A DNA stretch of 64,000 bases from Bacteroidota bacterium (GTDB lineage Bacteria; Bacteroidota; Bacteroidia; Bacteroidales; Paludibacteraceae): contig JAJYBB010000004.1 of NCBI GenBank assembly GCA_021779195.1, positions 1 through 64,000 of the forward strand, in the 5' to 3' direction. Positions 4,645 through 32,607 of this stretch are shown one piece after another. The notes under the pieces are model-generated. The model searched no databases, was not told the DNA's origin, and saw only the letters and a program-made list of their open reading frames with translations. A program made the position numbers and the translations under genes. Numbering within the stretch: the stretch's first letter is position 1; every line of letters starts with the position of its first letter.

Positions 4645-5100
4645 TTATTTGATTTTTACTTCTTCCTGCCTCACTTCGCGTTCACAAAAATGGCATTTTA
4701 GCAAAATTTCATTTTCATTGTTAATTACATGGAAACGTGTAGTTACGGGTTGATGATTGGTTATGCAATTGGGATTACAGCATTGAACAATTTCTATAAT
4801 TTCTTCCGGCAAAACCAATGGTCTTTTTTCTACTACTTCATATTCACGGATAATATTAATTTTTGCATTTGGAGCAATGAGTGCAATTTTATTGGTTTCA
4901 TCTACTTCCAGCGCACGTTCCGATATTTTAATCAGTCCTTTTGATCCGATTTTAGCACTATCCAGATTATTTGCCAATGTGATTTGATTCAGAGTTACAT
5001 CTAAATGCAGAATGGATACTACTTTAAATAATTTATCCGATGGAATATGATCAATGACGGTACCGTTGCGAAGTGCAGCTACTTTTAATTTTTTTTCCAT
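4645..5100 (-). CDS. pyrI: Aspartate carbamoyltransferase regulatory chain
   Basis: The regulatory subunit binds ATP or CTP and docks onto the catalytic chain PyrB, giving allosteric control of pyrimidine synthesis. The N-terminal allosteric domain covers roughly residues 1-95. The C-terminal zinc domain has C107, C112, C136 and C139 in the C-x4-C...C-x2-C arrangement known from E. coli PyrI. Its start is only 12 bp past the pyrB stop, so the two are surely one operon. Its presence implies a B/R-type ATCase holoenzyme that is feedback-regulated. Confidence 0.96.
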   Translation of the reverse strand: MEKKLKVAALRNGTVIDHIPSDKLFKVVSILHLDVTLNQITLANNLDSAKIGSKGLIKISERALEVDETNKIALIAPNAKINIIREYEVVEKRPLVLPEEIIEIVQCCNPNCITNHQPVTTRFHVINNENEILLKCHFCEREVRQEEVKIK

Positions 5101-5112
5101 AAAAATACGAAT

Positions 5113-6042
5113 TTATTTTTTTTCACTTTTAAAAGTTATGGAATTAAGCACTTTACTTACAATTGCTTGTCTAACATATAATCCATTTTGTGCTTGCCTG
5201 AAATAATAGGCTTTTTCATTTTTATCCACATCCGGGTCAATTTCAGTTACACGGGGAAGTGGGTGAAGTATACGCAAATTCGGTTTTGTATGTTCAAGCA
5301 TGGCGTTTTTAAGTGTATAAACATTTTTTACCCGCTCGTACTCCATCAAATCCTGAAAACGTTCTTTCTGAACACGCGTCATATACAAAATATCAGCATC
5401 ATTAAAATTTTCATTCAATTCATTTTCTTCGGTAAATGAAATGTTATTTTTTCGACAAAAAAGTTTGTATTCGTCGGGCATTTTCAATTCTTCAGGAGCA
5501 ATAAACTTGAAAGTAGGATGAAAATGGGACATAGCCATGATGAGTGAATGCACGGTTCGACCGTATTTCAAATCACCAACCAAACAAATAGTCAGGTTTT
5601 CAAGGGTTCGCTGCGTTTTAAGAATAGAATACAAATCAAGTAAAGTCTGTGATGGATGCTGATTGGCACCATCACCCGCATTAACAATGGGAACCGGCGA
5701 AACCTCGGCAGCGTAGCGGGCAGCTCCCTCAAGAGGATGACGCATCACAATGGCATCGGCATAACAGCTTACCATGTGAATGGTATCGTTGAGCGTTTCA
5801 CCTTTTGACGAACTGCTGGTAGCTGCATCAGAAAAACCGATAATAGAACCTCCAAGTCGAATCACAGCCGTTTCGAAACTCAATCGTGTTCGGGTAGACG
5901 GTTCGAAAAACAACGTGGCAATAACTTTTCCATCCAATATTTTACGGTTTGGATTGGCTTCAAATTCAGCAGCTGAATCGAGAATGGACAGAATCTCATC
6001 CTTGCTGTAATCAGAAATAGATACTAAACTATTGTTGCTCAT
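5113..6042 (-). CDS. pyrB: Aspartate carbamoyltransferase catalytic chain
   Basis: This enzyme catalyses the first committed step of pyrimidine synthesis: carbamoyl phosphate plus aspartate gives carbamoyl-aspartate. The phosphate-binding signature [12 protein letters not shown] starts at residue 46, an SSSSKGE loop supplies the second active-site segment, and [11 protein letters not shown] and HPLPRV follow. The 309-residue length is normal. It is followed at once by pyrI. The 220-nt leader has a good promoter and an intrinsic-terminator hairpin, so the gene is probably controlled by transcription attenuation. Confidence 0.97.
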
Positions 6043-6059
6043 GGTATTATTATATATAT

Positions 6060-6254
6060 TCAGTCAACAGAAACAGACAGTAAATCCCGTTTAACCGTCA
6101 ACCTGTTTATTTGTTCACAAATTAAAAAAAACCAACACAAATCCGAAGCCGGTTTATATTGGTTTTTAAAATTTTTCAGGGCAACTTTTTTTGTACAACT
6201 ATTTAATATAGAGTTGCTTTGTTCGAAAAAATATTTAAAGTTTCTCGTTTTCAT
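6060..6254 (-). CDS. Putative 64-codon leader ORF of pyrB (pyrL-like)
   Basis: A small reading frame begins a few bases after the predicted start point of the pyrB transcript, runs straight through the terminator hairpin at 6124-6167, and stops 18 nt before the pyrB start codon. The product resembles no known protein family. Its value, if any, would be translation over the hairpin, as with the pyrL leader peptide of the E. coli pyrBI operon. No Shine-Dalgarno is visible and the 5' UTR would be almost absent. It may equally be chance. Confidence 0.35.
6124..6167 (-). terminator. Attenuator-like intrinsic terminator in the pyrB leader
   Basis: On the minus strand a long stem (outer 9 bp, 6167-6159 with 6135-6127; inner CCG/CGG closing GCTT, with one bulge and two wobbles) is followed by eight U (6131-6124). 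It lies about 80 nt before pyrB and downstream of the pyrB promoter. Upstream, GCAACT (6217-6212) can pair with either of two AGTTGY segments (6200-6195 or 6186-6181), giving alternative or pause hairpins. Confidence 0.65.
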
Positions 6255-6263
6255 ATTCGTTTA

Positions 6264-6295
6264 CAAAGATAGTTGTTTTATTTGAATTAATGAAA
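6264..6295 (-). promoter_or_regulatory. Promoter of pyrB-pyrI
   Basis: The -7 element TATCTTTG (6271-6264) matches TAnnTTTG exactly. A TTTC at -33, one base off TTTG, lies 20 nt upstream. The predicted start point near 6257 gives a leader of about 215 nt containing the terminator hairpin. Confidence 0.65.
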
Positions 6296-6318
6296 CTGAA
6301 ATAGCTTATCTATTTGAA

Positions 6319-6915
6319 TTAATTTTGAAAACACAAACTATTTATAGTTTTAAGTTTATTAATTAAAAGTTCTGCATCCTGCATTCGGATAGATATTTTC
6401 ATTATACACAGATTATTAAAATCTTGCTTAATAATTTGAGCATTAGCATCCTTAATCACCCGCATTACATCATTCAGCACCACATATTGAAAATAAAAAG
6501 AAAATGACATTTCAACCGATTTTTCTAAGATATCAGCCTGATTCAAAGCATCGGCAGCTGCCTCCCTATAAGCTGTTATAAGTCCACCGGTTCCCAGTAA
6601 AATTCCTCCAAAGTATCGAACTACAATGACTAGTACGTTGGTAAGTTCGCGTGAATTGATTTGTCCCAAAATAGGTCTTCCAGCAGTTCCTGAAGGCTCA
6701 CCATCATCATTAGATCGAAATTCGGTTCGATCAGCACCAAGCATATAGGCATAACACACATGACGGGCATCAAAGAAACGTTTTCGATGATCTTTCACTA
6801 TATTTTTGATCTCCTCAACATCAGTAACAGGAATTGCAAACGATAAAAATTTGCTACCTTTTTCTTTATAAATACCTTTAGTGGAAGCAGATAGGGTTTG
6901 AAAAGTGTATGGCAT
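6319..6915 (-). CDS. YigZ/IMPACT family protein
   Basis: The N-terminal UPF0029/Impact domain is clear: YKEKGSKFLSFA near residues 16-27, RHVCYAYMLG, then SNDDGEPSGTAGRPILGQI and VVRYFGGILLGTGGLITAYREAA. A C-terminal RNA-binding-like domain follows. Related bacterial proteins are called YigZ; the eukaryotic homologue IMPACT regulates GCN2, but the bacterial role is not established. I chose the ATG at 6915 because homologues start close to this point; an in-frame ATG at 6933 would add six residues. A -7 box lies just upstream. Confidence 0.88.
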   Translation of the reverse strand: MPYTFQTLSASTKGIYKEKGSKFLSFAIPVTDVEEIKNIVKDHRKRFFDARHVCYAYMLGADRTEFRSNDDGEPSGTAGRPILGQINSRELTNVLVIVVRYFGGILLGTGGLITAYREAAADALNQADILEKSVEMSFSFYFQYVVLNDVMRVIKDANAQIIKQDFNNLCIMKISIRMQDAELLINKLKTINSLCFQN

Positions 6916-6953
6916 ATTGAAAAACGCAACCAATAAATTACAAATTTGACATG

Positions 6954-6961
6954 CAAATATA
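6954..6961 (-). promoter_or_regulatory. -7 element of the YigZ-family gene
   Basis: TATATTTG on the minus strand matches TAnnTTTG and lies about 20-40 nt before the candidate starts. No convincing -33 TTTG is present at the usual spacing. Confidence 0.4.
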
Positions 6962-7402
6962 ATAATTTCATTTCAAAATATAAGATTCTCAAAATATCGG
7001 CTGAATTAAATTATTAAAGTAAAAAAAATAAAATGTTCAAACTTACAAGGAATCATTTTTGTTAGATTAATAAAGTTTCTCTAAATAAAAGATTTATATT
7101 TCAAGAAAACACGAAGACTCGAAGCACTGTTTTTCTAATAGGTTTATTTTGTGATTTTTAATTTCAAGAATCAAATTGAAAATCAATGATTTTCTATTGA
7201 TCCTTCCATTTCAGAGAAATAGTTCGTAATAAAATAGCGTTAACTATTGATAATCAAATAAATAAATTTTAAAAATTTAATATCAGTATAAAGTCCAATT
7301 TTCGAAAAAAAGATCTTAACGCGAATACGCGGTATTTAAAAAGCTATTGCAGAGTGGACTTATAATTAAAAGGTTTTGATTGAAATTTTTAAACCCATAA
7401 AA
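6962..7402. other. 440-bp AT-rich intergenic region
   Basis: The region lies between divergently transcribed genes. It is about 75-80 percent A/T and carries two small inverted repeats (GAAAATCA/TGATTTTC at 7178-7194 and CGCG-AATA-CGCG near 7320-7332). No promoter with both elements, RNA gene or coding remnant was recognised. Confidence 0.5.
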
Positions 7403-7810
7403 ATGTCAATTATTATGGTACGACTTGAATTAAAACAAATTTATCTTCAACTTGAACATGAAATTAACTGTTTGAGCCAAACAAAAGTTGCTTTGCACAG
7501 GCAAGCAATTAAAGAAGATATGCAACATGTGGTAACTGATTTAAAATCAGATATAGACGAATGGATATTTCAATTAAATGAACGTTCTATTTCGTGTTAT
7601 GAATTAGAACAATTATTGGAATCAAAAAGAGAATTAATTGATTTTCAGGAGTTAAGGAAAATTGGAATTAATGAAGAAGAATTTGAAACTTTTCAAAACG
7701 ACTTTTTGCGTTGCATTGCCAAATCAATTTTTGATTGCTACTTAAATACTCTTTTTAAAAATCCTAAAGGAAGTACCTTTGATGGATTAAAAAAAGTTAA
7801 TTGGTTTTGA
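7403..7810 (+). CDS. Hypothetical protein, mostly helical
   Basis: A 135-residue protein that I do not recognise. Heptad-like spacing of Leu and Ile with many Glu and Lys (for example LELKQIYLQLEHEINCL and LEQLLESKRELIDFQELRK) suggests an all-helical, possibly coiled-coil, cytosolic protein. There is no signal peptide or membrane segment. The ATG at 7403 is preferred over an in-frame TTG at 7376. Codon use and acidic-basic composition look like a real gene. It stands alone between divergent yigZ and tRNA-Thr. Confidence 0.6.
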   Translation: MSIIMVRLELKQIYLQLEHEINCLSQTKVALHRQAIKEDMQHVVTDLKSDIDEWIFQLNERSISCYELEQLLESKRELIDFQELRKIGINEEEFETFQNDFLRCIAKSIFDCYLNTLFKNPKGSTFDGLKKVNWF

Positions 7811-26275: not shown

Positions 26276-26773
26276 TTAAATTTTATACTTCAAGCTACCA
26301 TTTGGACAAGCAGCCACACACTTTAAGCACTTTGAACATGAATAACTAATTCCTGATGAAGTTGCATTATCTCCCCGATAAAGACTGTATTTTTTTGGTT
26401 CAAGAGATGAAATATAACAGGCTTTGTCGCATTTGCCACATTTTATACAGGTGTCTTTATCAATTTTGATTTTAAAAAGCGACCATTTATTTAGCCAACC
26501 TGAAATCCATGCAATAGGGCAGCCCAATTTATGATATTGATACATGGCTGCAAATTGTTTGTTTCCTCCCATCATCAATTCCATCATAAAGCCGACAGGA
26601 CACATCCAGCGACAAAAAACTTTTCCGAAAATTACACCGGTTAAAACCCCAAATATCAAAATATACCAAAGTGAAACATCATAAAAATGTATCAATAAAT
26701 AAATGCCTAACCCGATCAGAAAAAGGATAAAAATTCGTTTGGAAATCAAAAAACGGGATACTTTTTTCATCAA
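26276..26773 (-). CDS. Membrane 2x[4Fe-4S] protein, NapH/NosR-like
   Basis: Two hydrophobic segments (about 12-32 and 35-52) are followed by CRWMC (54-58), as in NapH/NosR/CcoG proteins, and by two ferredoxin-type clusters with cysteines at 109, 112, 115, 119 and 146, 149, 152, 156. It is a short version (165 residues) with fewer membrane helices than NapH and probably passes electrons between a quinone or membrane donor and a cytosolic partner. It is the last gene of the eight-gene minus-strand cluster and starts 9 bp past the methyltransferase. Confidence 0.8.
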   Translation of the reverse strand: MMKKVSRFLISKRIFILFLIGLGIYLLIHFYDVSLWYILIFGVLTGVIFGKVFCRWMCPVGFMMELMMGGNKQFAAMYQYHKLGCPIAWISGWLNKWSLFKIKIDKDTCIKCGKCDKACYISSLEPKKYSLYRGDNATSSGISYSCSKCLKCVAACPNGSLKYKI

Positions 26774-26782
26774 TATTCCAAT

Positions 26783-27394
26783 TTATTTTTTTGTTAAAAT
26801 CATAATTTGATTATATCTATTTATAATTTCATATTCGATAGTTAAACCGGTTTGTCGTACCAAATAATGAAGGCCACCCAATGACTCAAAAGATTTAAAA
26901 TTTCGAAAATGCTCACGTCCAGCAACAAACTCTACAAAGTTCGTTGAGTTTTTCCAGAAATCAGTTCGTTGAGGAATCAAATAATCAGCAATAATCAATT
27001 TATCGGTTAATTCAAAAATATCATTTAAAAGTCCAATCCTTTCATTTTCATTCACTTCATGTATAACAAAAGTCAATACTGCAAAATCAAAATGAAGATT
27101 CTTTTCTTGAATTAAATCCCGGATAGAAGCATGTCTGAAGCTCAAGTTCTTATTTTCAGATATAGACAAATTATAGCTTGCCTGTCTGATATTCTTTGAA
27201 GAAAGATCAATACCGAGTATTGTTTGACAAGAATCTGCAGCTAAAAAACTAAAAAAACCGGTACCACAACCCACATCTATAACATTTGCATGATGCTCAA
27301 GAAGACTTTCAATTTGAAGGAATAATCTTTCTTGATTCGGTGCAATGATTTTATCATAAATAAGACCATCGTACCAGTGTGGTTTGTCGATCAT
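26783..27394 (-). CDS. Class I SAM-dependent methyltransferase
   Basis: A 203-residue Rossmann-fold methyltransferase: motif I is VIDVGCGTGFFSFLA near residues 38-52 and GIDLS is the acidic loop. The LTFVIHEVNE segment is the motif IV region. The substrate is not evident. It lies 19 bp after the membrane thioredoxin gene and 9 bp before the iron-sulfur gene, so it is part of the cluster. No extra metal-binding cysteines are seen, in contrast to the ArsM-like gene at the head of the cluster. Confidence 0.8.
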   Translation of the reverse strand: MIDKPHWYDGLIYDKIIAPNQERLFLQIESLLEHHANVIDVGCGTGFFSFLAADSCQTILGIDLSSKNIRQASYNLSISENKNLSFRHASIRDLIQEKNLHFDFAVLTFVIHEVNENERIGLLNDIFELTDKLIIADYLIPQRTDFWKNSTNFVEFVAGREHFRNFKSFESLGGLHYLVRQTGLTIEYEIINRYNQIMILTKK

Positions 27395-27413: not shown

Positions 27414-27830
27414 TTATTTTATTTTCAATTGTTTAAGCAAATACTCTTTGGTTTTGACTCCTACAAATCTATTAATTTCTTTGCCATCTTTAAATAAAAT
27501 CAGTGTAGGGATATTTCGAACACTAAAACGTTGGGTCATAGCTTTATATGTTTCAATATTTAATTTGCCAACCTTAAAACCATCTGGAATTTCTTCTGCA
27601 ATTTCATTCAAAATTGGAGCCATCATACGACATGGAGCACACCATTCAGCCCAAAAATCAACCAACACAATTTTTCCTTTGGTCTGCTGATTGAAATTTT
27701 TATCAGTCAAAGTCAGTATTTTATCACTATCGGCCACTTTAGGTGCTTTTTTCATTCTGGCACGTGCAATGATATTAACTGATACTATGAATGCTAACAC
27801 AATGGCAATGATTATAAGAGCTGTATTCAT
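27414..27830 (-). CDS. Membrane-anchored thioredoxin
   Basis: A single N-terminal hydrophobic segment (about 4-22) is followed by basic RARMKK and a thioredoxin domain with the active site WCAPC (C64, C67). CAPC replaces the usual CGPC. NIPTLILFKDGK contains the cis-Pro loop. By the positive-inside rule (cytoplasmic side after the TM) the domain may face the cytoplasm, but this is uncertain. It starts 23 bp after the DUF1847 gene and probably works with the fusion reductase encoded upstream. Confidence 0.85.
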   Translation of the reverse strand: MNTALIIIAIVLAFIVSVNIIARARMKKAPKVADSDKILTLTDKNFNQQTKGKIVLVDFWAEWCAPCRMMAPILNEIAEEIPDGFKVGKLNIETYKAMTQRFSVRNIPTLILFKDGKEINRFVGVKTKEYLLKQLKIK

Positions 27831-27853: not shown

Positions 27854-28318
27854 TTATTTGACAAATTCAAGATACGGGTTGTTTTTATGTTCTCTGTCTT
27901 TTACAACCAATGTTGTAGTAGGTGCTTTCGACTTCATATTGAAAACAATATCATGTCCAACGCAAAGACCGAAAGAAATGTTCAAATCAGTATCGTTTTG
28001 TGCAAGGAAATCAGCTTGCCCCGCAGGATTGCACGATGTACCTGAAATTGTATCGTCATTCAACAAATCGGCGGCTTTGACGCGTTTGTATTTACAATCT
28101 ACAGAAATCACTTCAAACTGATCTGAAAGCCTGTTTTTCAATTCATTCGCCTCGCGCGTCATCCCAATACAATGAGCAATTCCAATTCGACGAACTCCTG
28201 TTAGTTTCGCATATTTTTTAAGTTCTTCAACCCTATTACTTCCCATGATGAGAGAATTTTCGGCAGCACGCATCAACTCTAAATCGCTCGAATTATACAA
28301 CTTTTTTTGATCTTCCAT
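27854..28318 (-). CDS. DUF1847 (predicted metal-binding) protein
   Basis: A 154-residue cytosolic protein with four conserved-looking cysteines (C50 in AHCIGM, C75 in SVDCKYK, C96 in GTSCNPAGQA, C119 in FGLCVGHD). The pattern IGIAHCIG and NISFGLCVGHD is what I remember for DUF1847, a group of putative metal-binding proteins of unknown function. It lacks the Cys-rich N-terminal extension of longer members. It sits between the Trx-TrxR fusion and the membrane thioredoxin. Confidence 0.75.
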   Translation of the reverse strand: MEDQKKLYNSSDLELMRAAENSLIMGSNRVEELKKYAKLTGVRRIGIAHCIGMTREANELKNRLSDQFEVISVDCKYKRVKAADLLNDDTISGTSCNPAGQADFLAQNDTDLNISFGLCVGHDIVFNMKSKAPTTTLVVKDREHKNNPYLEFVK

Positions 28319-29767: not shown

Positions 29768-31078
29768 TTAATCTTTTAAGTAATATGCCGCTCCCAGCGA
29801 CAATAATTCTTTCACAGGGCGACAGTCAGGTGTATTTGGATGACCGTTCTTGTTTTTAGCCACCGAGGCACAACCACCACCACAAGCCAAAGATACAGAG
29901 CAGGTTTTACATTCTTCAATGGTTGTAATATCGCGGTTCTGCCAACTTTCGATGGCAGATTCATTTTTGCTTACAGTCGGATAAAAGGTTCCAAGCTCAT
30001 CGCCTTTATTTCCAACAGTGGCAGTGCACGAATAAATAGTACCTGTAAAGTCAAAAGCCCATTCTGTTTTACAAGCTGGACAAGAATCGAAAAGTGCCAT
30101 AGGCAATTCTTCGTGTTCCGAAATATATTTGGCAATGGAGAAAGCCGGTTTGTAGAACTCAGCAATATAAGGATGCACTTTCAACAAGTCATATAAATGT
30201 TGATACAGCGTAGCACGGTCAAAAAGTTTTTCAGGTGTGCTGTTGCAGAAATGCAACTCGTAGTTTCGCCCGATTTGGGTCTTAAACAATGGAGACGAAG
30301 TCCAGCCACGATCAATGGCGAAGCGTGAAAGATCAGCCAGATTTTCAATATTCTCTTTGTCGATGACCATGCGCAGGTTAATGTTGATTCCAGCTGCCAA
30401 ACAAGCATCTATCCCCTCCACAATTTTACTGAATGTAGGCTGTTTGCCTTTCATGTAACGTCGAGCGTCATGAATTTCTTCCGTTCCATCGAGTGTAACC
30501 TGTATTTCACGAATGCTGGCAGTTTGTAATAGATCTACATAAGATGCTAAAGTATAGCCATTTGTAACAAAAGCAACATCTAATTTAGCTTCATTGGCTT
30601 TGTTTAGAAAATGAGAAATCATCTTGCGTTGATTATCACCCGGCAACAAAGGTTCACCTCCAAAAACAGTAACATATTTACGTTTACCTGCAAATTCGGT
30701 TTTTATATAATTGAAAAATGCATCAATTACCTCAATACTTACCACTTTTTGAACCGGATTATAGCCTTCCTGATAACAATAGGAACAGGCAAAGTTGCAG
30801 GAATAATTAGGAACAAAAAATAACTGGGTTTCATCATCTTCCCGTTTTTCGGTAAAGTCTAAGTAGGCAAGTTTAAAAGCCCGCTTTTCTTTGGCTTCGT
30901 CAACCAGATACCCTTTTTGCGAAAATTCGCCCGTTGGATCGAGTTTATTCTTCAGCATTTTTACTTCGTTTGCTGAAATAATATCTGCCGATTTACTCAA
31001 CGGATTGACAATGAAAAAATCTTCAGAGTCAGCAATGGGAGTGATAATATTGTGATTGGAAATTGACATTTTATTCAA
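29768..31078 (-). CDS. Radical SAM/SPASM protein, putative peptide maturase
   Basis: The radical SAM cluster motif is C94-x3-C98-x2-C101, within a typical TIM-barrel region. The C-terminal SPASM part has C333, C336, C351, C390, C393, C399, C403 and C419, enough for two auxiliary [4Fe-4S] clusters. About 70 N-terminal residues (FFIVNPLSKSADIIS) precede it. Length 436 fits RiPP-modifying members. It lies 76 bp after the gene for a small Cys-rich peptide, the likely substrate. A sulfatase-maturase role is possible, but no sulfatase is nearby. Confidence 0.88.
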   Translation of the reverse strand: MNKMSISNHNIITPIADSEDFFIVNPLSKSADIISANEVKMLKNKLDPTGEFSQKGYLVDEAKEKRAFKLAYLDFTEKREDDETQLFFVPNYSCNFACSYCYQEGYNPVQKVVSIEVIDAFFNYIKTEFAGKRKYVTVFGGEPLLPGDNQRKMISHFLNKANEAKLDVAFVTNGYTLASYVDLLQTASIREIQVTLDGTEEIHDARRYMKGKQPTFSKIVEGIDACLAAGININLRMVIDKENIENLADLSRFAIDRGWTSSPLFKTQIGRNYELHFCNSTPEKLFDRATLYQHLYDLLKVHPYIAEFYKPAFSIAKYISEHEELPMALFDSCPACKTEWAFDFTGTIYSCTATVGNKGDELGTFYPTVSKNESAIESWQNRDITTIEECKTCSVSLACGGGCASVAKNKNGHPNTPDCRPVKELLSLGAAYYLKD

Positions 31079-31110
31079 TTTGAAAAAATGAAAAAATTTA
31101 AAATAAATAA

Positions 31111-31143
31111 ACTATTGTCAGCGGAATTTCCGTTGACAATAGT
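31111..31143 (-). terminator. Strong hairpin between Cys-rich peptide and radical SAM gene
   Basis: A near-perfect 13- to 16-bp stem (31111-31126 with 31128-31143, one G-U pair) is followed on the minus strand by a U-rich stretch. It lies 12 nt past the stop of the peptide gene and 33 nt before the maturase start. This looks like a partial terminator or processing site that would make the peptide transcript more abundant than that of the downstream genes. Confidence 0.6.
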
Positions 31144-31154
31144 TTTCTCAAAGT

Positions 31155-31262
31155 TTAGTCATGACAACCAGCAACGATGATAGAAACTTTAGCACAACAT
31201 TGTGCAACTTTTGCTTCAGAATTGCTGTTGCATCCACAGCTCTTTTTTACTACACTTTTCAT
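31155..31262 (-). CDS. 35-residue Cys-rich peptide, putative RiPP precursor
   Basis: A small reading frame (35 residues plus stop, ATG at 31262). It starts MKSVVKKSCGC and ends VAGCHD; cysteines are at 9, 11, 22, 23 and 33 (C-x-C, C-C, C). It has no signal peptide or double-Gly motif, and the small residues Ser, Ala, Val and Gly dominate. It lies between the ArsM-like and radical SAM genes with a hairpin on its downstream side. A radical SAM substrate or a metal-binding peptide are the main options. It is too short to be sure of coding by composition alone. Confidence 0.6.
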   Translation of the reverse strand: MKSVVKKSCGCNSNSEAKVAQCCAKVSIIVAGCHD

Positions 31263-32102: not shown

Positions 32103-32134
32103 TTTGGAATCACTAAAAAATTTTATTATCTTTG
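32103..32134 (+). promoter_or_regulatory. Promoter of the zinc-ribbon gene, divergent to arsM-like
   Basis: TTTG (32103-32106) and TATCTTTG (32127-32134) are 20 nt apart and 42 nt before the ATG at 32176. The two divergent promoters share a short control region (32053-32134). Confidence 0.75.
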
Positions 32135-32175
32135 TCGAACAATACATTTCAATAAATTATATTATACTGACTATC

Positions 32176-32607
32176 ATGCTATTTAATGAAGAAATTACGC
32201 CACAGAAAGCACAAGAATTTTTTGAAAGCAGCGAAAAAGTTTTAGAATTTATTGCCGGAATAAAGTGGACAGATGGTTTTAAATGCCGCAAATGCGGAAA
32301 TACCAACTATTGTGAAGGCAAGACTCCTTTTTCACGCCGATGTACCCGTTGTAAAGCGGAAGAATCTGCATCGGCACATACAATTTTTCACAATATAAAA
32401 TTTCCGGCTAACAAAGCATTTTATATTGCATACCACGTTTGCGTACTTGGAAAAGAATTTTCATCCTATAATTTTTCAGAACAATTAGGACTTAACCAAA
32501 TGACCTGCTGGAAGTTTCGCAAACGAATTCAAGAATGCTCTTCACGAATCAACAACTCAGCAAACAACAAAATTCAGCTTATTTTGATGAGTGAATATCG
32601 TGCATAG
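32176..32607 (+). CDS. Zinc-ribbon protein, IS1595-transposase-N-terminus-like
   Basis: A 143-residue protein with a CxxC...CxxC zinc ribbon (FKCRKCG and RCTRCK) flanked by helical segments, matching the N-terminal region of IS1595-family transposases. The DDE catalytic part is absent: it ends after a helical stretch (FRKRIQECSSRIN) and a clean stop. It has its own promoter, no flanking terminal inverted repeats were seen, and it faces the cluster promoter. It may be a domesticated DNA-binding regulator or a truncated element. An upstream TTG at 32104 is rejected as start because it overlaps the promoter. Confidence 0.7.
   Translation: MLFNEEITPQKAQEFFESSEKVLEFIAGIKWTDGFKCRKCGNTNYCEGKTPFSRRCTRCKAEESASAHTIFHNIKFPANKAFYIAYHVCVLGKEFSSYNFSEQLGLNQMTCWKFRKRIQECSSRINNSANNKIQLILMSEYRA

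Follow-up and report, generated by a model that had tools for sequence, protein, structure and literature searches.

What is the function of a peptide of only 35 residues encoded directly before the gene of a radical S-adenosylmethionine (SAM)/SPASM enzyme, and is this peptide the substrate of its neighbour? The question is raised by a stretch of 64,000 nucleotides (nt) from a bacterium of the Paludibacteraceae (Bacteroidota; contig JAJYBB010000004.1, positions 1 to 64,000), called the window throughout, in which the peptide MKSVVKKSCGCNSNSEAKVAQCCAKVSIIVAGCHD is encoded on the minus strand. A first-pass annotation of the window had described a complete 35-residue frame with cysteines at positions 9, 11, 22, 23 and 33, flanked by the genes of a short ArsM-like methyltransferase (MT1) and of the SPASM enzyme, and the translation of the window bears out this description, the frame being closed by a stop codon. 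The peptide gene stands second in a series of minus-strand genes, after that of MT1 and before those of the SPASM enzyme, a thioredoxin-thioredoxin reductase fusion (TrxTR), a DUF1847 protein, a thioredoxin, another methyltransferase and a 4Fe-4S protein (Table 1). Taken as a whole, the locus is best explained, with a probability of about one half, by a precursor of a ribosomally synthesized and post-translationally modified peptide (RiPP) belonging to a dedicated four-gene module, the product of which would serve as an intracellular thiol cofactor or carrier.

Conservation of the peptide

A protein search matched the peptide in 36 of 100 genomes, that of the window included, which places the frame far beyond chance, and it is practically certain that the peptide is a real, conserved gene product. 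Starting from the enzyme, a SPASM-first search over the best 80 of 188 relatives showed that 77 of the 80 loci have a small open reading frame (ORF) preceding the SPASM gene and oriented like it. These ORFs of 31-39 residues share a common form made of MKS[LV][VI]KK, a variable linker, AQCCAKxSx4GCHD and the stop, and are separated from the SPASM gene by 5-252 nt in 72 loci and by 426-2370 nt in the other five. In the three exceptions (L064, L068 and L077), the SPASM locus is devoid of both MT1 and the peptide, and the latter occurs elsewhere in the genome, directly after MT1.

The core residues A, Q, C, C, A, K, S, G, C, H and D, including Cys22, Cys23 and Cys33, are unchanged in all 77 peptides, and the core stays nearly fixed even though the identity of the SPASM enzymes drops to 37%; in peptide L121, Leu replaces the core Gln. 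Two or more linker cysteines, represented by Cys9 and Cys11 in the window, are found in 26 of the 77 peptides, nearly all from a single Paludibacter-like clade, and constitute a lineage feature located outside the conserved core. Of the C-x-C and C-C pattern emphasized by the first-pass annotation, the C-C of residues 22 and 23 is therefore conserved, together with Cys33, whereas the C-x-C of residues 9 and 11 is not, and the conserved feature reads CC-x9-C-H-D. A double-Gly leader site, already noted as absent from the window peptide at first reading, is equally lacking in the 77 peptides, and the only GG among 24 spirochaete peptides (L184) is located in the linker.

The proportions of nonsynonymous (pN) and synonymous (pS) differences in the core amount to 0.024 and 0.503, respectively, for 22 Paludibacter-like sequences, and to 0.064 and 0.804 for 48 distant sequences, seven sequences of middle identity being omitted from the comparison. 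Linkers of equal length yielded pN/pS values of 0.264/0.550 (n=13) and 0.240/0.582 (n=15). Strong purifying selection acts on the core, and the linker is only loosely constrained. A frameshifted or synonymous-neutral pattern, or the lack of a conserved peptide beside related SPASM genes, had been anticipated as arguments against a functional peptide; what is observed instead are strongly synonymous core substitutions, a peptide in 77/80 SPASM-first loci and a SPASM gene in 24/24 spirochaete loci fetched via the peptide.

With respect to known families, the window peptide gave zero matches in Pfam and NCBIfam at E<=1, and three of its relatives gave zero matches in NCBIfam at E<=0.01. FabZ, the sole match of the peptide profile in the PDB (E 0.29), was taken as a chance match. 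A literature search for the strings AQCCAK, QCCAKTS, QCCAKVS, VAGCHD, VVGCHD and CCAKISK retrieved no paper with any of them, and no description of the peptide/enzyme system was found in the literature titles and abstract openings listed, a scope within which it may still figure among the SPASM clusters of PMC9062424. That article groups the SPASM-type enzymes in more than 250 clusters, of which the first 118 were studied.

Co-occurrence of the four genes in two phyla

Among 295 Bacteroidales genomes, the peptide profile matches 34, and the SPASM enzyme (E<=1e-70, weakest 5.5e-152), the short MT1 (frames of 210-236 aa) and TrxTR (E<=1e-125) are each found in 33. The SPASM and MT1 sets comprise the identical 33 genomes, every one of them peptide-positive, and 32 of these belong to the TrxTR set, which lacks G552, at the edge of whose locus L141 a match begins, and includes G712 (79% complete). 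In the MT1 search, E leaps from 4.9e-59 to 2.0e-41, and the frames beyond this gap measure 260-410 aa, with one exception of 214 aa. The overlap between peptide and SPASM enzyme has a hypergeometric chance of about 6e-43, kinship being ignored. Since several families (e.g., f6, f13, f19 and f21) mix positive and negative genomes, the genes have been gained or lost together. In a draw covering the whole phylum, the peptide occurs in 6 of 395 genomes, including that of the window. In genome G711, a second short MT1-like methyltransferase (contig C86:19991-20572, 214-aa frame, 34% identical) adjoins TrxTR on a contig that differs from that of the peptide.

The peptide has also been identified in a second phylum, the Spirochaetota (25 of 149 genomes, the centre genome included). 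All of the 24 other loci, fetched via the peptide, contain the SPASM gene, with identities down to 37%, and, weaker matches being counted, an MT1-like sequence; TrxTR occurs within the stretch in 21 of them and the remaining three lie near contig ends. Several spirochaete loci are bare, with a TrxTR-MT1-peptide-SPASM or MT1-peptide-SPASM-TrxTR organization and without any widely recurring neighbour, and thus define the minimal unit. All 24 peptides end in GCHD and possess an AQCCA (16), AQCCS (7) or AQCCT (1) motif, so that the two-phylum core becomes AQCC[AST]Kx[ST]x4GCHD; nine of them contain a linker Cys pair. This two-phylum count of core conservation is conditional on the motif used for retrieving the peptides, the unbiased measures being the profile searches and the SPASM-first count. 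Part of the core is duplicated in the peptide encoded near position 6476 (minus strand) of locus L202, AQCCATAQCCAK.

The first-pass annotation had proposed the peptide as the substrate of the SPASM enzyme and a co-occurrence count across Bacteroidales as a check. The presence of both partners matches almost perfectly in the 295 genomes and, taking into account the conserved adjacency and the synonymous pattern as well, we infer that the peptide is very probably this substrate. In this respect, the locus conforms to the broad radical SAM/SPASM RiPP kind, in which a conserved small ORF stands beside the SPASM gene.

Partner enzymes

The SPASM enzyme combines a CxxxCxxC motif with a seven-Cys SPASM motif, a combination which we take to be the hallmark of radical SAM/SPASM enzymes, and C91/C95/C98 as well as C330, C348, C387, C390, C396, C400 and C416 occur in 29/29 sequences from the two phyla. 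In the structure model of the whole enzyme, residues 1-76 consist of strands followed by helices, suggestive of a RiPP recognition element (RRE)-like domain; taken within the whole model, this region is aligned with 5wgg_A from residue 4 and with 8vpo from residue 1. The CteB chain 5wgg_A aligned to residues 4 to 433 of the model over 392 residues. CteB (5wgg) is the nearest solved sequence to the SPASM enzyme and ranks first in Foldseek, and it ties with anSME in VIA-align 2.

MT1 resembles ArsM (CmArsM, PDB codes 4fr0 and 4kw7) by its fold and by three conserved cysteines, C22/C110/C160, which align with the As(III) ligands C72/C174/C224 of CmArsM and are kept in 29/29 two-phylum sequences. 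It differs from ArsM by its size and is distinct from the canonical 267-aa ArsM of the same genome. Compared to the profile NF008823 (cut-off 263 bits), MT1 scores 193.5 bits with a match beginning at profile position 58 of 272, and a spirochaete relative scores 230.6 bits. The canonical ars operon is located on another contig of the window's genome (L171, about 4702-7758, plus strand) and reads ArsR-ArsC-ArsC-ArsM-ACR3, the names being given by sequence reading. A simple arsenic operon was not retained as the default explanation of the module, because the genome possesses this separate operon and because no recurrent neighbour was recognized as an ars gene.

In the named loci, the C-terminus of MT1 carries short Cys-rich tails (CGC, CCC, CGCC), which have been repeatedly gained and lost (15 changes on the SPASM tree). 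Complementarity between the Cys pairs of the peptide linker and of the MT1 tail was considered and rejected. Of 130 loci, 62 possess the tail pair only, 38 the peptide pair only, 28 neither and two both (61, 31, 14 and one, respectively, in an earlier set of 107), these counts omitting identical SPASM rows, short rows, L001 and L191, the latter dropped for an unreadable methyltransferase frame. No claim is made on complementary cysteines, because only four independent pairs lie on supported branches and the sign test has a median p of 1.

RNA hairpin and genomic neighbourhood

A strong RNA hairpin, which possibly acts as an attenuator, separates the peptide gene from the SPASM gene. Folding z-scores below -2 were obtained for 45 of 54 stretches located after the peptide versus 17 of 54 control stretches located after MT1 (60 shuffles, custom shuffler); the test set comprises the window and 53 loci with gaps of at least 55 nt, the other 24 of the 77 loci having gaps of 5-50 nt. 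The hairpin recurs in relatives with differing stem sequences. A scan for promoter and terminator consensus sequences was uninformative (31 promoters for 27.1 expected, four terminators for 4.9 expected) and did not list the hairpin. As a leaky terminator, the hairpin would yield the peptide in excess over the enzyme, which fits a substrate or a stoichiometric carrier.

Table 1. Features of the peptide locus, with positions numbered from the first nucleotide of the window.
Feature	Position	Strand	Evidence
35-residue precursor-like peptide	31155..31262	minus	frame translation and homologue searches
Leader-like N-terminal motif MKS[LV][VI]KK, residues 1-7	31242..31262	minus	counts among 77 peptides: K2 70, S3 65, K6 68, K7 72
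Conserved core AQCCAKxSxxxxGCHD, residues 20-35	31158..31205	minus	77/77 invariance, purifying selection, second phylum
Strong RNA hairpin, possible attenuator	31109..31145	minus	between peptide and SPASM genes, z -5.46
Radical SAM/SPASM enzyme, 433 aa	29768..31069	minus	CxxxCxxC, C330-x12-G-x4-C348, C387-x2-C-x5-C-x3-C, C416
Predicted RRE-like N-terminal domain of SPASM enzyme, residues 1-76	30842..31069	minus	whole-enzyme structure model
Short ArsM-like methyltransferase MT1, 207 aa, C22/C110/C160	31388..32011	minus	sequence, fold, co-occurrence
Thioredoxin-thioredoxin reductase fusion TrxTR, 422 aa	28387..29655	minus	family matches, co-occurrence
DUF1847 protein, accessory	27854..28318	minus	relatives in 29/80 loci
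Thioredoxin, accessory	27414..27830	minus	family match and neighbour clusters
Second SAM methyltransferase, accessory	26783..27394	minus	Pfam/NCBIfam
4Fe-4S (NapH-like) protein, accessory	26276..26773	minus	Pfam/NCBIfam
167-aa protein, IS1595-type zinc ribbon	32104..32607	plus	divergent from MT1; sole Pfam domain above cut-off

The recurrent neighbours in the 80 Bacteroidales loci include thioredoxins (41 loci), DUF302 (31), DUF1847, DUF6132 (27), rhodanese (16), SQR-like proteins (15), a CoA-disulfide-reductase/rhodanese (13) and a YgaP-type membrane protein (12), and lean to sulfur and thiol metabolism. In seven loci, TauE, a membrane transporter and putative sulfite exporter, is encoded on the opposite strand. 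Neither a peptide exporter nor a peptidase was seen among the clusters occurring in at least five loci (ten checked against Pfam, the rest by reading) or among the spirochaete clusters occurring in at least three loci (by reading); single loci do carry membrane proteins, e.g., YeeE-like and cytochrome-bd-like ones, these labels being, like the DsrE, TusA and Qmo-like ones used below, a reading of the sequences. Relatives of the IS1595-type zinc-ribbon protein occur in 27/80 loci, none of the 27 on the SPASM strand, and this protein is perhaps a domesticated piece of transposase and a candidate regulator of the operon. An MbdU-related Cys-rich protein (metal-binding selenoprotein family) was observed in four spirochaete loci, before MT1 in L199, L203 and L206 and after TrxTR in L204; the L203 copy matches MbdU with E 2.7e-37 and 128.8 bits (cut-off 600).

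Proposed function and alternative explanations

A fixed peptide, matched profiles and the apparent lack of a recurrent peptide exporter or immunity gene form a mycofactocin-like pattern, which leads to a leader, a spacer and a fixed core that would be modified by the SPASM enzyme and used inside the cell. According to this scheme, the ribosomal precursor would be bound at its N-terminal MKS[LV]xKK leader via the predicted RRE-like domain, and its C-terminal AQCCAKxSx4GCHD core would be modified, most likely at Cys. The product would have a fixed structure and remain intracellular, acting as a thiol cofactor or carrier instead of an exported antibiotic, an intracellular role being rather more probable than export. 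The most likely job of the Cys-Cys...Cys-His-Asp core would be to hold a soft thiophilic group, i.e., a trivalent metalloid or sulfane sulfur, which MT1 could receive at its three-cysteine site and methylate, while TrxTR would re-reduce the peptide product. This three-cysteine site and the Trx-TrxR partner suggest the handling of a soft, thiophilic group, and a metalloid or sulfur is tentatively proposed as the cargo. Because MT1 and TrxTR belong to the module as well, the handling of metalloid or sulfur may be part of the function itself, the holding of a metal or metalloid having been regarded at first reading as an alternative to modification by the SPASM enzyme. The leader role and the type of modification are putative, and the carrier role and the identity of the cargo uncertain. 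The most specific version, a previously unknown, mycofactocin-like thiol cofactor of Bacteroidota and Spirochaetota whose core ferries a soft element, either a metalloid or the sulfur of a persulfide, between two dedicated enzymes, MT1 and the Trx-TrxR fusion, is possible though rather doubtful; the product could even be a metalloid-containing RiPP.

Other explanations deserve to be weighed against this cofactor or carrier. The best-scoring NCBIfam models for the SPASM enzyme are peptide maturases and the enzyme resembles CteB, as expected for an ordinary ranthipeptide or sactipeptide with an antimicrobial or signalling role, in which Cys thioethers are introduced by the enzyme before the leader is cut and the peptide exported. 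However, no recurrent family of peptide exporters, peptidases or immunity proteins was seen near the module (partly by sequence reading), the 25 NCBIfam model scores listed for the SPASM enzyme, out of 79 matches, are all below their curated cut-offs, and a core nearly fixed over two phyla beside a variable linker is contrary to what a diversifying antimicrobial would show, which makes this explanation quite improbable. MT1 might also tailor the peptide by S- or other methylation, with Trx-TrxR keeping the peptide reduced for both enzymes and no metalloid being involved. Such a role would account for the identical presence patterns of MT1 and the SPASM enzyme, for the position of MT1 next to the peptide even where the SPASM gene is elsewhere, and for the separate canonical ArsM gene, but it would leave three cysteines that match the As(III) ligands of ArsM needless for a plain peptide S-methylase, and is considered rather unlikely. 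A detoxification peptide, i.e., a ribosomal, phytochelatin-like scavenger of arsenic or metalloids for which the SPASM modification is a minor tuning, is in line with the three conserved Cys and the His/Asp pair, with the likeness of MT1 to ArsM in sequence and fold, and with the MbdU-like protein of four spirochaete loci; it is unlikely in view of the separate ars operon, of recurrent neighbours in which no ars gene was recognized and of the sulfur genes (rhodanese, CoA-disulfide-reductase/rhodanese, YgaP-type, TauE) surrounding the Bacteroidales loci. Finally, the hairpin located just downstream might suggest that the frame is untranslated and conserved as an RNA element, an idea of negligible probability given that the core changes are mostly synonymous, that linker lengths shift by whole codons and that the M[K/R]S start is common.

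Several observations weigh against the intracellular cofactor or carrier. G096, a genome of 99% completeness, encodes the peptide but shows no SPASM enzyme at E<=1e-20, a long ArsM-type match as its only match in the MT1 search, and no TrxTR at the cut-off; its orphan peptide (L119, about 7296-7394, minus strand) is surrounded by genes read as DsrE, TusA and Qmo-like proteins and by another methyltransferase. Conversely, G712 carries TrxTR alone, and the L196 peptide lies about 2 kb from the SPASM gene on the opposite strand. Arsenic need not be the cargo, since the window's genome has a separate ars operon with its own ArsM and ACR3, and no recurrent peptidase that would release the core was seen near the module. 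A thioether formed by the SPASM enzyme would consume a Cys residue needed for metal binding, the RRE-like domain belongs to a predicted model, and the modification, binding and expression of the peptide are all predicted from the genes.

Comparison with known systems

Among the systems built on a radical SAM enzyme and a small peptide, the SCIFF ranthipeptide system of CteA and CteB, SCIFF being presumably named after a six-Cys peptide as in the title of its model, differs from the present system by its number of cysteines (three conserved Cys here) and by the score of the SPASM enzyme against TIGR03974, 70 bits for a cut-off of 425. Similarly, the SPASM enzyme is no member of the four highest-scoring NCBIfam models, namely TIGR04463 (134.5 versus 525 bits), CefB (128 versus 600), Clo7bot (125.3 versus 600) and PapB (121.3 versus 340). 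The repeated Cys-X3-Asp motifs of PapA, as described in PMC9413430, do not occur in the peptide. The Bacteroidales clusters of RiPPs with a GG leader, as described in PMC10352776, similarly associate a radical SAM enzyme with a small precursor, but GG is lacking in the 77 peptides and no PCAT transporter was noted here.

The closest analogy is with mycofactocin, for which Haft (PMC3023750) argued in favour of a cofactor from a fixed peptide whose C-terminus contains invariant residues, from matching profiles and from the lack of a transporter or immunity gene. Both systems share a well-conserved small peptide with an invariant C-terminus, a radical SAM enzyme with a C-x2-C-x5-C-x3-C motif and matched profiles, with no transporter or immunity protein reported. 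However, no sequence relation of the peptides was seen, the end being GCHD here instead of CGVY, and MT1 and TrxTR take the place of the glycosyltransferase and nicotinoproteins of mycofactocin. In addition, the present module is found in Bacteroidota and Spirochaetota, and its SPASM enzyme scores 62.8 bits against TIGR03962, the mycofactocin radical SAM model, below the cut-off of 265. The best reading is that the peptide and the SPASM enzyme represent a new family of radical-SAM RiPPs, with a chemistry predicted from their sequences.

RiPPs with a core fixed across phyla, such as pyrroloquinoline quinone (PQQ) and mycofactocin, are read as cofactors and not as antibiotics. The peptide family follows the same grammar with a thiol chemistry, taking into account its three invariant Cys and the co-distribution of the ArsM-like methyltransferase and the Trx-TrxR fusion, which suggests that the module yields a thiol cofactor or carrier made from a peptide and not named before. 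Should its product indeed be a thiol cofactor or metalloid carrier of ribosomal origin, these bacteria would have a new way of handling soft elements.
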